This document shows, piece by piece, positions 57,005 to 61,248 of a DNA stretch of 64,000 nt. Location: NCBI RefSeq assembly GCF_030409055.1, contig NZ_CP116619.1:4131628-4195627 (forward strand). Reading direction: 5' to 3'. The position numbers were made by a program, and so were the translations under genes. The stretch is from Trichocoleus desertorum NBK24. GTDB taxonomy: Bacteria; Cyanobacteriota; Cyanobacteriia; FACHB-46. The notes under the pieces were generated by a model. That model saw only the letters and a program-made list of their open reading frames with translations, was not told the origin of the DNA and did no database searches. Within the stretch, counting starts at the first letter, position 1; the number at the start of each line of letters is the position of its first letter.

Positions 57005-57586
57005 CTAGGGATTGATGCTCTGAGCAGACCAAGCTTGGTTTTGATCTCTTTGATAGAGACAACGATTTTGTGGATCTCCACGCAGTTCTAGGTGATCTAC
57101 CTGCTCTGGTTCTAGTAGGAGTAGACAGAAGTGAGGCAGGGGTTCTGTCGCATCGGGAGGCTGTGACGCAAAAGCCGCAGCCTCTTGTTTTGGCTGTCCT
57201 GGTGTTGGCCAAGTAAATTGTAGACGTGCGGCATCTGAAAGTTCTTGCCAAGCTGTTTTACGAGCTTGTTGCAACTCTATGCCTGGATGCTCAGCTCGCA
57301 CTAAAGTGAGGACACCAGCAAGGCGAAATTGCTCTCTGGTCTTAACAAAATACCAGCAGGCTTCTGCTTTGGGATTCTGCTCAATTTGGCCTGTTTTCTC
57401 GCTGCGAGCGTTGGTGACAAACTTTAGTTGGTTTGTGGGATCAAGAAAGCCTCGGAACACAACTGTCCGGTTTGCAGGCTGGCCGTTGAGGTGTACTGTC
57501 GCTAGTTGCAAAAAACGAGCCTCAGGCTGGCTACGGTTGCGATGTAAAGCATGAGCAAGGGGCGATCGCCAAGGCGCAAAGGACAT
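57005..57586 (-). CDS. pyridoxamine 5'-phosphate oxidase-related FMN-binding protein
   Basis: A 193-residue protein of the PNPOx-like split-barrel family (Alr4036 type). Visible family segments are FLQLATVHLNGQPANRTVVFRGF (~25-47) and LKFVTNARSEKTGQIEQNP, then EACWYFVKTREQFRLAG, as in flavin-binding oxidases. The end (LELRGDPQNRCLYQRD) is also typical. It may bind FMN and oxidise a small substrate, but true pyridoxamine phosphate oxidase activity is not certain. Its end is seven bases from the convergent cysE stop. Confidence 0.88.
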   Translation of the reverse strand: MSFAPWRSPLAHALHRNRSQPEARFLQLATVHLNGQPANRTVVFRGFLDPTNQLKFVTNARSEKTGQIEQNPKAEACWYFVKTREQFRLAGVLTLVRAEHPGIELQQARKTAWQELSDAARLQFTWPTPGQPKQEAAAFASQPPDATEPLPHFCLLLLEPEQVDHLELRGDPQNRCLYQRDQNQAWSAQSINP

Positions 57587-57933
57587 TACAAACTTTCTTT
57601 CTAACGCGACTTCAGGCTTTCCAGTATTACAGAGATTTAAGATCCTTCTTGCGGCTCTGGAAGTAATCCAACTTTAAGCCAGTGGACTGAAGTACGACTA
57701 GCTCAGACCAGTAGACGTATTGAGCTTGTCAGTTTGTAGTAGACCCAAGCATGGCAGTTTCAGGCGTCACTTGAGCGATTTTACTTTGACAAACCTGAGT
57801 ACAAGTGTCTTATCCTTTAATTGATTTGAGCATGAATAGTGGTTAAAGCCAGTTTTTTAGCCCTTTAGACACTACATATAGACTATTGGATCAACTATAT
57901 TTAGACTTAGGCCCAATAGTGAGATCTAAATCT
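57587..57933. promoter_or_regulatory. Divergent spacer upstream of the HExxH gene
   Basis: A 347-base spacer. No other coding region is convincing. It contains a NrdR-box-like palindrome (57869-57884) listed separately, and a weaker match with half-site TAGTG around 57827-57842, so it resembles the region in front of nrdJ. Confidence 0.45.
57869..57884. promoter_or_regulatory. NrdR-box-like palindrome upstream of the HExxH gene
   Basis: ACACTACATATAGACT matches the published NrdR consensus (acaCwAtATaTwGtgt) at 13 of 16 positions. It lies 49 bases before the ATG at 57934. NrdR represses ribonucleotide reductase genes, and the nearby nrdJ has similar sites. Confidence 0.5.
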
Positions 57934-58848
57934 ATGGCTCAAGGTGTTGAACAGGTGAACAGTCAGCCTTCTAAAGCTATAACTGCTGCTAATCCTGTAT
58001 TTTTCAGGTCTTACGGTCGTCGAGGCAGCAAAACCGACAATGAATTAGTAAATAGGCTGAATGCTAAAGTTCGCCAGATTTTGAAACACGCTCGGAGGCT
58101 TGCAGAAATAGATCCTCAAACTGAAGAAATCACAAAGCCACTAGACCATTACTCTAATGGGGTCATTTTTGAGCCTTTAGAGGACGACGGCCACCTACCT
58201 AATGACTCCAATCGAACTATCATCCTCAATTCAAAAGCTATTATTCAGCTAACCGAGAAAGTCCCTAAACCGTGGCTACCTATATCTCTCCTAGTTTTCT
58301 TATGCCATGAGGCGTCACACATCTCTCAAAGAGTTAAATATCGAGAAGATGTTCAACGTATGAAAGGAGTTGGCAAAGATATTGGGGAGAAGCGAATGGG
58401 AGAGCTGGATTTGAGAAGTGATTTTCTAGCAGCCCATACGTTAAGCCTATTTTTTATGTTGCACGATAGAAAAACTTATAACCGTAGAGAGTATGTTAGA
58501 TGGTTTTATGAAGTGTGGCACAAAGTATGCAAAGCCATGCTTGATGCTTTTCCTGCTAGTCAACGAGAAGACAAACAGCAGCGAGTCTTTGGATACTTAC
58601 TCATGTCAAACCTCATTAGCGATGCTTACCTTGGTAACTACCCATTAGAATTTGAAGCTGAGTTATGGCCTGTCTGGGGCGATTCTTTAGGCTGGCTATC
58701 GATATACAGTAACGGCAATTCTTTACTCTCAGGCAGTCCAGTTAATTCAAACCTAATGGAGCAAATACTAAACAATATCTCCACAGGAGAATATGACTTT
58801 GCTGCTGCGGGCATTAGAGAGCTATGGCGGCAACTACCAAGACGCTAA
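57934..58848 (+). CDS. HExxH protein with a nrdJ-like N-terminus
   Basis: A 304-residue soluble protein of unknown family. Residues 1-30 are clearly related to the start of the downstream NrdJ: both share the E-x-V...SQ pattern and ANPVFFR (19-25) followed by Y and RR. From ~35 on it has nothing of NrdJ. A zinc-peptidase-like motif HEASH is at 125-129, and ELDLRSDFLAAH at 157-168 could give a third ligand, as in ImmA/IrrE-like proteins. ATG 57934 is chosen because its surroundings match those of the nrdJ ATG; TTG 57886 is an alternative. It may be an inserted gene fused to an old nrdJ 5' end. Metalloprotease activity is not proven. Confidence 0.75.
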   Translation: MAQGVEQVNSQPSKAITAANPVFFRSYGRRGSKTDNELVNRLNAKVRQILKHARRLAEIDPQTEEITKPLDHYSNGVIFEPLEDDGHLPNDSNRTIILNSKAIIQLTEKVPKPWLPISLLVFLCHEASHISQRVKYREDVQRMKGVGKDIGEKRMGELDLRSDFLAAHTLSLFFMLHDRKTYNRREYVRWFYEVWHKVCKAMLDAFPASQREDKQQRVFGYLLMSNLISDAYLGNYPLEFEAELWPVWGDSLGWLSIYSNGNSLLSGSPVNSNLMEQILNNISTGEYDFAAAGIRELWRQLPRR

Positions 58849-58879
58849 TCTCAATCGTCCTGGCTTTCCTTTACAGATT

Positions 58880-58928
58880 TAGTGATCTATAGTGTTTGTT
58901 TTAGTAGTTGAAGCACTATATATAGCCA
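58880..58928. promoter_or_regulatory. Pair of NrdR-box-like sites upstream of nrdJ
   Basis: Two sites lie in the 114-base spacer before nrdJ. At 58913-58928 the sequence contains CTATATATAG, an exact match to the ten central bases of the NrdR consensus. At 58880-58895 the right half TATAGTGT matches fully. Their centres are 33 bases apart, about three helical turns, close to the spacing usual for paired NrdR boxes. Confidence 0.6.
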
Positions 58929-58962
58929 CTTCCTCTCCTACGTTAGCGAGACTTCATTATCT

Positions 58963-61248
58963 ATGGTTCGAGATCTAGAGCGGGTACGCCCAACCAGTCA
59001 ATTTCCGGAAACAGCACCTACAGCCAATCCAGTTTTCTTTAGGACTTATAGCCGTAGAACTGATGGTCGGCGTGAAACCTGGGAACAAGTCTGCGATCGC
59101 ACAATTGAAGGCATCGCCAAACTGGGTAAGCTCACTGACGCGGAAGTAGATTTGCTGCGGCGGATGCAGTACCAGATTAAGAGCTTGCCATCCGGTCGTT
59201 GGTTATGGATTGGGGGCACTGACTGGATCGAAAAACCAGAAAACTTTTCCGGCGCTTATAACTGCACCAGCACCAACGTCATCGACTGGCGAGCTTTTGG
59301 CTTAATGATGGATCTCGCCATGCAAGGATGCGGAACTGGGGCGATCTTAGAACCCAAATACATCGATCGCCTCCCTGCCATTCGTAACCGCTTGAATGTC
59401 ACCGTTTCAGGCGAAATTGGCACTACCCCTGCTGATCAGCGTCGCAGCACCACAGATGTTCAGATTGAAGGCAACCAAGTTCAGATCAATGTCGGTGACA
59501 GCCGCCAAGGTTGGGTCAAGTCCTATCAGTCTTTGCTCGAACTCTCTAGCAGCGATCGCTTTTCTGGTGAAGTTCAAGTAGTTGTCAATCTCAGCGATGT
59601 CCGTCCGGCGGGTGAAACGCTAAAAGGCTTTGGTGGTGTTGCCAACCCGATCAAGTTACCCGAACTCTACGATCGCTGCGCTACCATCCTGAACCGAGCC
59701 GTCGGTCGCCAATTAAACTCCGTAGAATGCTGCTTGTTGATTGATGCTGCTGCGGTAACGATTGTCGCCGGAAACATTAGGCGCAGCGCGGGTATGCGTC
59801 AAGGGGATAGCAACGATGCAGAATTTGCAACAGCTAAGGACAATCTCTGGCAGCAAGATGCAGAGGGTAACTGGCGCATTGACCCCGAACGCGACGCTCT
59901 GCGGATGGCAAACCATACCAGAGTGTTTCACCGCCAACCTTCTGAGCAAGAGTGTATTGAGGCAGTTCGTAAGCAGTTCTACTCTGGGGAAGGCGCGATT
60001 CAATATGCTCCAGAAGCGATCGCCCGATCTAACTCTGACTTATTGCCTACACCAGAACTAAAAGCAGAATTCCTGCAAGTATATGAGCAGGGCGATATTA
60101 AACAGTGGATACAAAATCACTATCCTCAGATATCAATTGAGGAGATCGAGCACCGCTTAGGACGTTATGGTTTAAACCCATGCGGAGAGATCACGGGGGC
60201 CGACTTCCACTGCAACTTAGCAGAGGTACATCTTAATCAACTCGATCCTCACAATCCGCAAGAACAGGAAGAGGCTTTCACCGCTGGAGCGCTCTCTGTG
60301 GCGGCGCTGTTGAACCATCGATTTGTGGAAGAACGCTATCAATGGTCGCGGGAAGTTGACCCGATTGTGGGAGTCTCTTTCACGGGGCTGTTTGACTTCT
60401 TCGTCAGAGCCTTTGGCGTGGACTGGTTGCACTGGTGGGAAGCGGGTCGGCCCGATACTGTAGCTGGCTTAGAGTTTAAGCAGAAAGAGCAAGCTTATCT
60501 ATCGCGCTGGAAAGAAATTGTGCATCAGGTGGTGTGGGAATACTGCGATCGCCACGGCATCAAGCGTCCTAACCGTTGCACTACTGTCCAGCCTTCCGGC
60601 ACTAAGTCACTCCTGACAGGTGCATCTCCCGGTTGGCACCCGCCCAAAGCTCAGCGTTACATTCGGCGGATCACATTCCGTAAGAATGACCCCGTAGCGC
60701 TGGCTTGTATTGAGTACGGCTATAGTGTCGTGCCGTCTCAGTCGGATAAAGATGAGAATGGCAACCTACTCAACGATCCTTTTGACCCACGGGTGACAGA
60801 GTGGCTGGTCGAAATCCCGGTCGAGGTGCCTTGGGCCAACTTGCCAGGAGCCGATCAAATCGCGATCGAGAAGTTCTCCGCCGAAGCGCAGTTTGACTTC
60901 TACATGCAGGTGCAGACGCACTATACCGCTCATAACACCAGTGCCACGGTGGAGCTACGAGAAGATGAAGTTGAGCCTTTGGCCCGACGGATTTATCAGG
61001 CGATCGCGAATCAAGAAGGCTACATTAGTGCGGCTCTCTTGGCTCGATTTGATGCACCTTTCCCCCGTTTACCTTTCGAGAAGATCGATCAACAAACTTA
61101 CGAACAGTTGCAGGAAGGGGTGCAGGCACGACGTAGAACTGATAACTTCTATACGGCCTTAAGCCGCTATGACTCTGGAGAGGCTACTGTTGAAGGCCCA
61201 GCGGGTTGCGACAGCGACAAATGCATGATGCCTGAGACAAAAAACTAG
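58963..61248 (+). CDS. nrdJ: adenosylcobalamin-dependent ribonucleoside-triphosphate reductase (class II)
   Basis: Class II ribonucleotide reductase, which uses coenzyme B12 to make deoxyribonucleotides without an oxygen-dependent subunit. The 761-residue protein resembles the monomeric type. Visible motifs are FSGAYNCTSTN with Cys101, the radical-site loop NPCGE at 405-409 (Cys407), and QPSGTKSLLTGASPGWHPP. The C-terminal redox pair is Cys749/Cys754 (CDSDKC). Some cyanobacterial copies carry inteins, but this one does not. Two NrdR-box-like sites lie upstream. The first 30 residues are duplicated in the gene before it. No Shine-Dalgarno is seen at ATG 58963. Confidence 0.95.
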   Translation: MVRDLERVRPTSQFPETAPTANPVFFRTYSRRTDGRRETWEQVCDRTIEGIAKLGKLTDAEVDLLRRMQYQIKSLPSGRWLWIGGTDWIEKPENFSGAYNCTSTNVIDWRAFGLMMDLAMQGCGTGAILEPKYIDRLPAIRNRLNVTVSGEIGTTPADQRRSTTDVQIEGNQVQINVGDSRQGWVKSYQSLLELSSSDRFSGEVQVVVNLSDVRPAGETLKGFGGVANPIKLPELYDRCATILNRAVGRQLNSVECCLLIDAAAVTIVAGNIRRSAGMRQGDSNDAEFATAKDNLWQQDAEGNWRIDPERDALRMANHTRVFHRQPSEQECIEAVRKQFYSGEGAIQYAPEAIARSNSDLLPTPELKAEFLQVYEQGDIKQWIQNHYPQISIEEIEHRLGRYGLNPCGEITGADFHCNLAEVHLNQLDPHNPQEQEEAFTAGALSVAALLNHRFVEERYQWSREVDPIVGVSFTGLFDFFVRAFGVDWLHWWEAGRPDTVAGLEFKQKEQAYLSRWKEIVHQVVWEYCDRHGIKRPNRCTTVQPSGTKSLLTGASPGWHPPKAQRYIRRITFRKNDPVALACIEYGYSVVPSQSDKDENGNLLNDPFDPRVTEWLVEIPVEVPWANLPGADQIAIEKFSAEAQFDFYMQVQTHYTAHNTSATVELREDEVEPLARRIYQAIANQEGYISAALLARFDAPFPRLPFEKIDQQTYEQLQEGVQARRRTDNFYTALSRYDSGEATVEGPAGCDSDKCMMPETKN

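Follow-up and report, generated by a model that had tools for sequence, protein, structure and literature searches.

An HExxH gene with an nrdJ-like promoter and leader upstream of cyanobacterial nrdJ, and its possible entry at the nrdJ 5' end

The nrdJ locus and its two related 5' ends

We analyzed a window of 64,000 nucleotides from Trichocoleus desertorum NBK24 (contig NZ_CP116619.1), in which nrdJ lies directly downstream of an open reading frame (ORF) encoding a protein with an HExxH motif. The features of the locus, in window positions, are as follows:

57005-57586, minus strand: PNPOx-like (Pyridox_oxase_2) gene (Pfam PF12766, E 1.7e-29)
57642-58944: segment with no match in the sister genome G002 (the blastn alignment breaks off after 57641 and picks up again at 58945)
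57827-57842, plus strand: NrdR-like box 1 upstream of the HExxH gene (p = 0.004 for the pair score, with a 26-bp spacer)
57869-57884, plus strand: NrdR-like box 2 upstream of the HExxH gene, ACACTACATATAGACT (same pair)
57892-57907, plus strand: third palindrome of the NrdR-box type, CAACTATATTTAGACT, out of NrdR phase with the other two
57934-58848, plus strand: HExxH gene, 304 aa (ORF)
57934-58029, plus strand: nrdJ-like leader of the HExxH gene, MAQGVEQV...AANPVFFRSYGRR (sequence comparison; disordered in the structure model)
58306-58320, plus strand: HEASH motif, residues 125-129, putative zinc site (family alignment)
58880-58895, plus strand: NrdR-like box 1 of nrdJ (pair p = 0.002, spacer 17 bp)
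58913-58928, plus strand: NrdR-like box 2 of nrdJ, GCACTATATATAGCCA (same pair)
58939-58962, plus strand: final bases 5' of the nrdJ start, like those native to the genus (AGCGxGACTT..ATCT; alignment to G001 and G002)
58963-61248, plus strand: nrdJ, adenosylcobalamin-dependent ribonucleotide reductase, 761 aa (TIGR02505, E 8e-239)

The reductase is a class II RNR of the monomeric type (TIGR02505 RTPR, 794 bits), with a GC content of 52% for its gene versus 42% for the HExxH gene. Synteny with G001 and G002 identified the PNPOx-like gene as the conserved left neighbor of nrdJ in the window's genus, and Rfam gave no structured-RNA match at the nrdJ 5' site.

The ORF and nrdJ were found to agree in promoter layout, in the sequence around the start codon, and over about 32 codons of leader, with no likeness beyond. 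Upon aligning the two 5' blocks (-30 to +110), we obtained a DNA alignment score of 54 (z = 12.7 against shuffles), with an alignable stretch from about -25 to codon 36, complete divergence after ANPVFFR-x-Y-x-RR, and leader copies that are ~64-74% identical. The HExxH leader peptide scored above 200 of 200 shuffles against the best-matching nrdJ leaders. These results bear out the first-pass annotation, which had reported that the two proteins share their first ~30 residues and nothing after, and ATCTATGG indeed spans both start codons. When the whole HExxH protein was searched against 96 relatives at E ≤ 0.01, the matches were limited to one other HExxH protein, nrdJ leaders, and one weak frame with an internal stop, indicating that the leader is no common motif. 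The reservation that ANPVFFR might be a short motif common to many proteins thus found no backing among the 96 relatives or in the shuffles, and chance or a common motif as the source of the likeness was ruled out by the shuffles and whole-genome searches.

NrdR is the repressor of ribonucleotide reductase, known to act chiefly on RNR operons and often on its own gene, and one NrdR gene is present in the window's genome. The "TATATAG" palindromes noted earlier before both genes are present and form NrdR-box-like pairs (p = 0.004 for the ORF and 0.002 for nrdJ, against dinucleotide shuffles), with spacers of 26 and 17 bp that are compatible with the 14-17 and 24-27 bp bound by NrdR (PMC12051234). 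Such pairs, palindromes at integer-turn spacing, occur in all seven HExxH promoters of the family described below, each at p ≤ 0.05, with a combined p of 3e-8 for promoters that are not fully independent. Hence, the constant feature is the promoter type and not the leader. NrdR may bind the candidate boxes of both genes. In front of each HExxH member, the boxes resemble those of the NrdR regulon in sequence and in helical-phase spacing, although the HExxH gene would be a new member of that regulon.

A small family of HExxH proteins

Profile searches over 390 Cyanobacteriia genomes recovered the HExxH family in 7 of them, while a further sample of 386 genomes from the phylum contained no member except the window's own. 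In one genome-contig scan, the window protein alone gave no match and a two-sequence profile gave two members. The absence of any match in plasmids, phages, or viral contigs, including IMG/VR, ruled out a phage or plasmid origin, just as the absence of a PADLOC match ruled out a defense gene and the absence of a credible Pfam or NCBIfam match, or of a PHROG match below E 0.05, ruled out a known peptidase family. By these searches, the family is an undescribed one.

The HExxH motif is present in six of the seven members (G226 has HDVAH instead), and D159, D163, and H168 are invariant across the family alignment. The AlphaFold2 model of the window protein had a mean pLDDT of 79, with most of residues 1-33 scoring below 50, and a fold search gave no significant PDB or viral match, the top hit being PprI (8sln; Foldseek E 0.31). 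For the pair from G309 and G275, sister proteins with 77% identity, a core dN of 0.133 and a dS of about 1.6, which is near saturation, pointed to purifying selection. The protein is likely a zinc peptidase. It resembles the gluzincin-type peptidases of the PprI/IrrE (M78) group in its helix-borne HExxH, acidic residues ~30 positions on, and the weak top fold match, but there is no significant match in sequence or fold, and the invariant downstream residue of the family is Asp, not Glu. That the protein acts in DNA or dNTP stress, as PprI does, is a guess, and one that we think unlikely to hold. If NrdR acts at these promoters, the putative metallopeptidase would be made at low dNTP supply, together with the RNR, upon lifting of NrdR repression.

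Four of the seven genes immediately precede nrdJ and share its orientation (window, G309, G275, and G226, from three bacterial families), and all four encode an nrdJ-like leader in which PVFFR is kept. The remaining three lie away from nrdJ: the G281 copy stands near topA with a degenerate leader and an nrdJ promoter of the type found in genus g54 (z = 13), the G083 copy adjoins psbA, and the leader is absent from both the G083 and G229 copies. HExxH proteins without the nrdJ-like N-terminus, for which the first-pass annotation had proposed a search, thus exist, and the notion of a single event peculiar to the window genome fails, as relatives occur at nrdJ in other families and elsewhere without a clear leader. 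In the protein tree, the nearest relative of the window protein is that of G226, a member of family f25 (support 94/96), whose leader is nearest to the nrdJ of its own family. In G226, an insertion sequence with a DDE transposase gene (L054:3586-4605, minus strand) separates the HExxH gene from nrdJ and apparently truncates the HExxH C-terminus; given this and the HDVAH motif, the G226 copy may be decaying.

The retention of PVFFR in all four nrdJ-adjacent members, and of a degenerate leader form in G281, could be read as a sign that the leader is a working peptide tag, required by both proteins for docking, localization, or degradation, which selection has preserved or made to converge. We consider this very improbable, since G083 and G229 lack the leader, the leader is predicted to be disordered and evolves faster than the core (dN of 0.29 versus 0.13 in the G309-G275 pair), and the likeness continues into promoter DNA.

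Empty and occupied nrdJ 5' ends

Both other genomes of the window's genus, G001 and G002, lack the HExxH ORF and have the PNPOx gene followed by nrdJ with one 5' end. G002 has 261 bp where the window has 57642-58944, and the two genomes are 93-94% identical on both flanks (blastn). As the window nrdJ is 93% identical to that of G002 at the DNA level from codon 1 onward, its first codons are native and the HExxH leader is the diverged copy. A single 5' end was likewise found in five uninserted genomes of genus g54, so the expectation that a locus free of the gene carries one copy holds in all of these genomes.

The clearest view of the insertion came from G309 and G275, two g54 genomes in which the native nrdJ promoter (z about 50 and 47, respectively, against uninserted relatives) and the first nine nrdJ codons head the HExxH gene, while the promoter of nrdJ itself and its first 12 codons are foreign and common only to these two (nrdJ_G309 against nrdJ_G275, z = 31). 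The promoter of the G309 HExxH gene matched that of nrdJ in the uninserted G257 (z = 50; 100/98 in the promoter tree), and that of the G275 gene matched nrdJ of G083 and G223 (z = 45-48). Between G309 and G257, homology is continuous (83.7%) across the start of the HExxH gene as far as codon 9, breaks off there, and is found again from nrdJ codon 12 onward. Gene conversion as the cause of likeness between the two leaders was ruled out in G309 and G275, where the HExxH leader resembles the nrdJ of relatives and not their own. A 115-aa nucleotidyltransferase-like ORF (L066:713-1060) is found upstream of nrdJ in the uninserted G257 and G083 and is missing from G309 and G275.

Grouping the HExxH promoters of G309 and G275 as one was rejected (AU p = 0.008, 159 columns), a statistic that suggests separate entries into these genomes; one entry with promoter exchange afterwards would also fit the foreign promoter that they share. 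The g54 nrdJ tree is unresolved and does not settle which genomes are sisters.

These loci also bear on an old duplication, in which a single ancestral event duplicated the nrdJ 5' end and the HExxH gene was afterwards inherited vertically, with loss from most lineages. The divergence between the window and G309 proteins (56% identity) is not obviously younger than that of their hosts, and the purifying selection on the gene would suit such a history. Leader codons 10-28, however, are present in the uninserted g54 genomes and in no inserted copy, such that the uninserted loci are not deletion products, a deletion being unable to restore these codons. Furthermore, only 7 of 390 genomes have the gene, and leaders and promoters track the nrdJ of their own locus, not the tree of the HExxH proteins. 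This already disfavored account strikes us as highly unlikely.

For the window, we compared the regions upstream of -24 of about 30 promoters. The HExxH promoter was closest to that of nrdJ in G002 (p = 0.001; 0.7% of cross-family pairs score as high) and did not resemble that of nrdJ in G001 (score 17). The nrdJ promoter was closest to f25 nrdJ promoters (p = 0.001; 0.4% of cross-family pairs score as high), compared with p = 0.05-0.08 against its own genus, and the HExxH leader peptide was most like f25 leaders. With this many promoters compared and no likeness to G001, the statistics are modest, and the pattern is suggestive, though not proof, of promoters that were swapped, as would follow from recombination with an f25-like donor at the start codon. 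The earlier model, in which the old promoter and start of nrdJ pass to the incoming gene and nrdJ is given replacements, was seen directly in G309 and G275, including the replaced nrdJ codons 1-12; in the window it extends, suggestively, to the promoters but not to the first nrdJ codons, which are native.

Proposed entry at the nrdJ start and its precedents

Overall, we propose that a unit consisting of a single gene, for a putative zinc peptidase, and carrying an nrdJ-derived promoter and leader, enters the nrdJ 5' end through recombination in the leader, a scheme that we regard as moderately probable. The product would be the resident promoter, a hybrid leader, and the HExxH gene, followed by the incoming NrdR-type promoter, a hybrid leader, and nrdJ, an order in which both genes stay under NrdR-type promoters and nrdJ remains intact. 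In G309 and G275, the crossover would lie between codons 9 and 12 of the leader; in the window, it would lie near the start codon, leaving the nrdJ codons native and the HExxH leader foreign. Because both junctions fall at corresponding leader positions, one crossover with a circular donor would suffice. The G281 copy near topA, with its g54-type nrdJ promoter, corresponds to the free form that entry of such a unit predicts. In the window, G309, and G275, the unit contains the HExxH gene only. Against the scheme, the window unit showed no integrase, transposase, or circular form, and its leader copies, given their low identity, would be poor material for homologous recombination. Related insertions at this position in distant species suggest that entry at the nrdJ start happened more than once, though the known family numbers only seven members.

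An identical arrangement would result from allelic replacement, in which donor DNA spanning the HExxH gene, promoter, and nrdJ recombines at both ends, with the left crossover in the promoter or leader and the right one in the nrdJ start, the unit being passive cargo of homologous recombination. This account makes a circular intermediate unnecessary and accommodates the foreign promoter common to G309 and G275, yet it requires two crossovers, both inside a short leader and at corresponding positions in separate cases, and it alone leaves the copies away from nrdJ (G281, G083, and G229) unexplained. We hold it to be possible but rather doubtful.

The closest precedent for entry of a unit at the 5' end is provided by dusA-associated genomic islands and prophages, which enter the dusA 5' end and replace it with their own sequence, with promoters before and after (PMC4482086); removing one such island together with dusA took a 48.3-kb deletion (PMC4482086). 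Both cases have the 5' end of a conserved gene replaced by an element-borne copy, which we found for nrdJ codons 1-12 and the promoter in G309 and G275 and, weakly, for the promoter only in the window. dusA islands, by contrast, have a dedicated integrase and can be large, whereas the HExxH unit is one ~1-kb gene without an integrase, and, unlike in the islands, the displaced native 5' end becomes the promoter and N-terminus of the incoming gene.

The inteins and homing endonucleases of cyanobacterial nrdJ likewise mark this gene as a repeated landing place for selfish DNA, but inteins splice out of the protein, whereas the HExxH unit stands as a gene of its own at the 5' end, and no endonuclease domain was recognized in it. 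Many relatives have an nrdJ interrupted near residues 275, 357, or 408; that of G226 (L054:2-3445, minus strand) has LAGLIDADG, Hom_end, and intein-splicing domains. The window nrdJ is intein-free and that of its sister G002 is interrupted, while the G001 nrdJ region (L038:1636-5160, minus strand) has eight stops in straight translation, such that its insertion may hold a frameshift.

More tentatively, and with more doubt than confidence on our part, the HExxH gene may represent a minimal one-gene mobile unit whose leader serves as an integration address, and which repeatedly entered nrdJ in unrelated cyanobacteria without an integrase, trading promoters each time and so coming under control of the host's dNTP-sensing repressor. 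If so, a gene would spread by using the start of an essential gene as its own and would thereby acquire a promoter that matches the host and senses dNTPs, while leaving the host gene unharmed, and an undescribed family of HExxH proteins would be tied to the control of DNA precursors in cyanobacteria.
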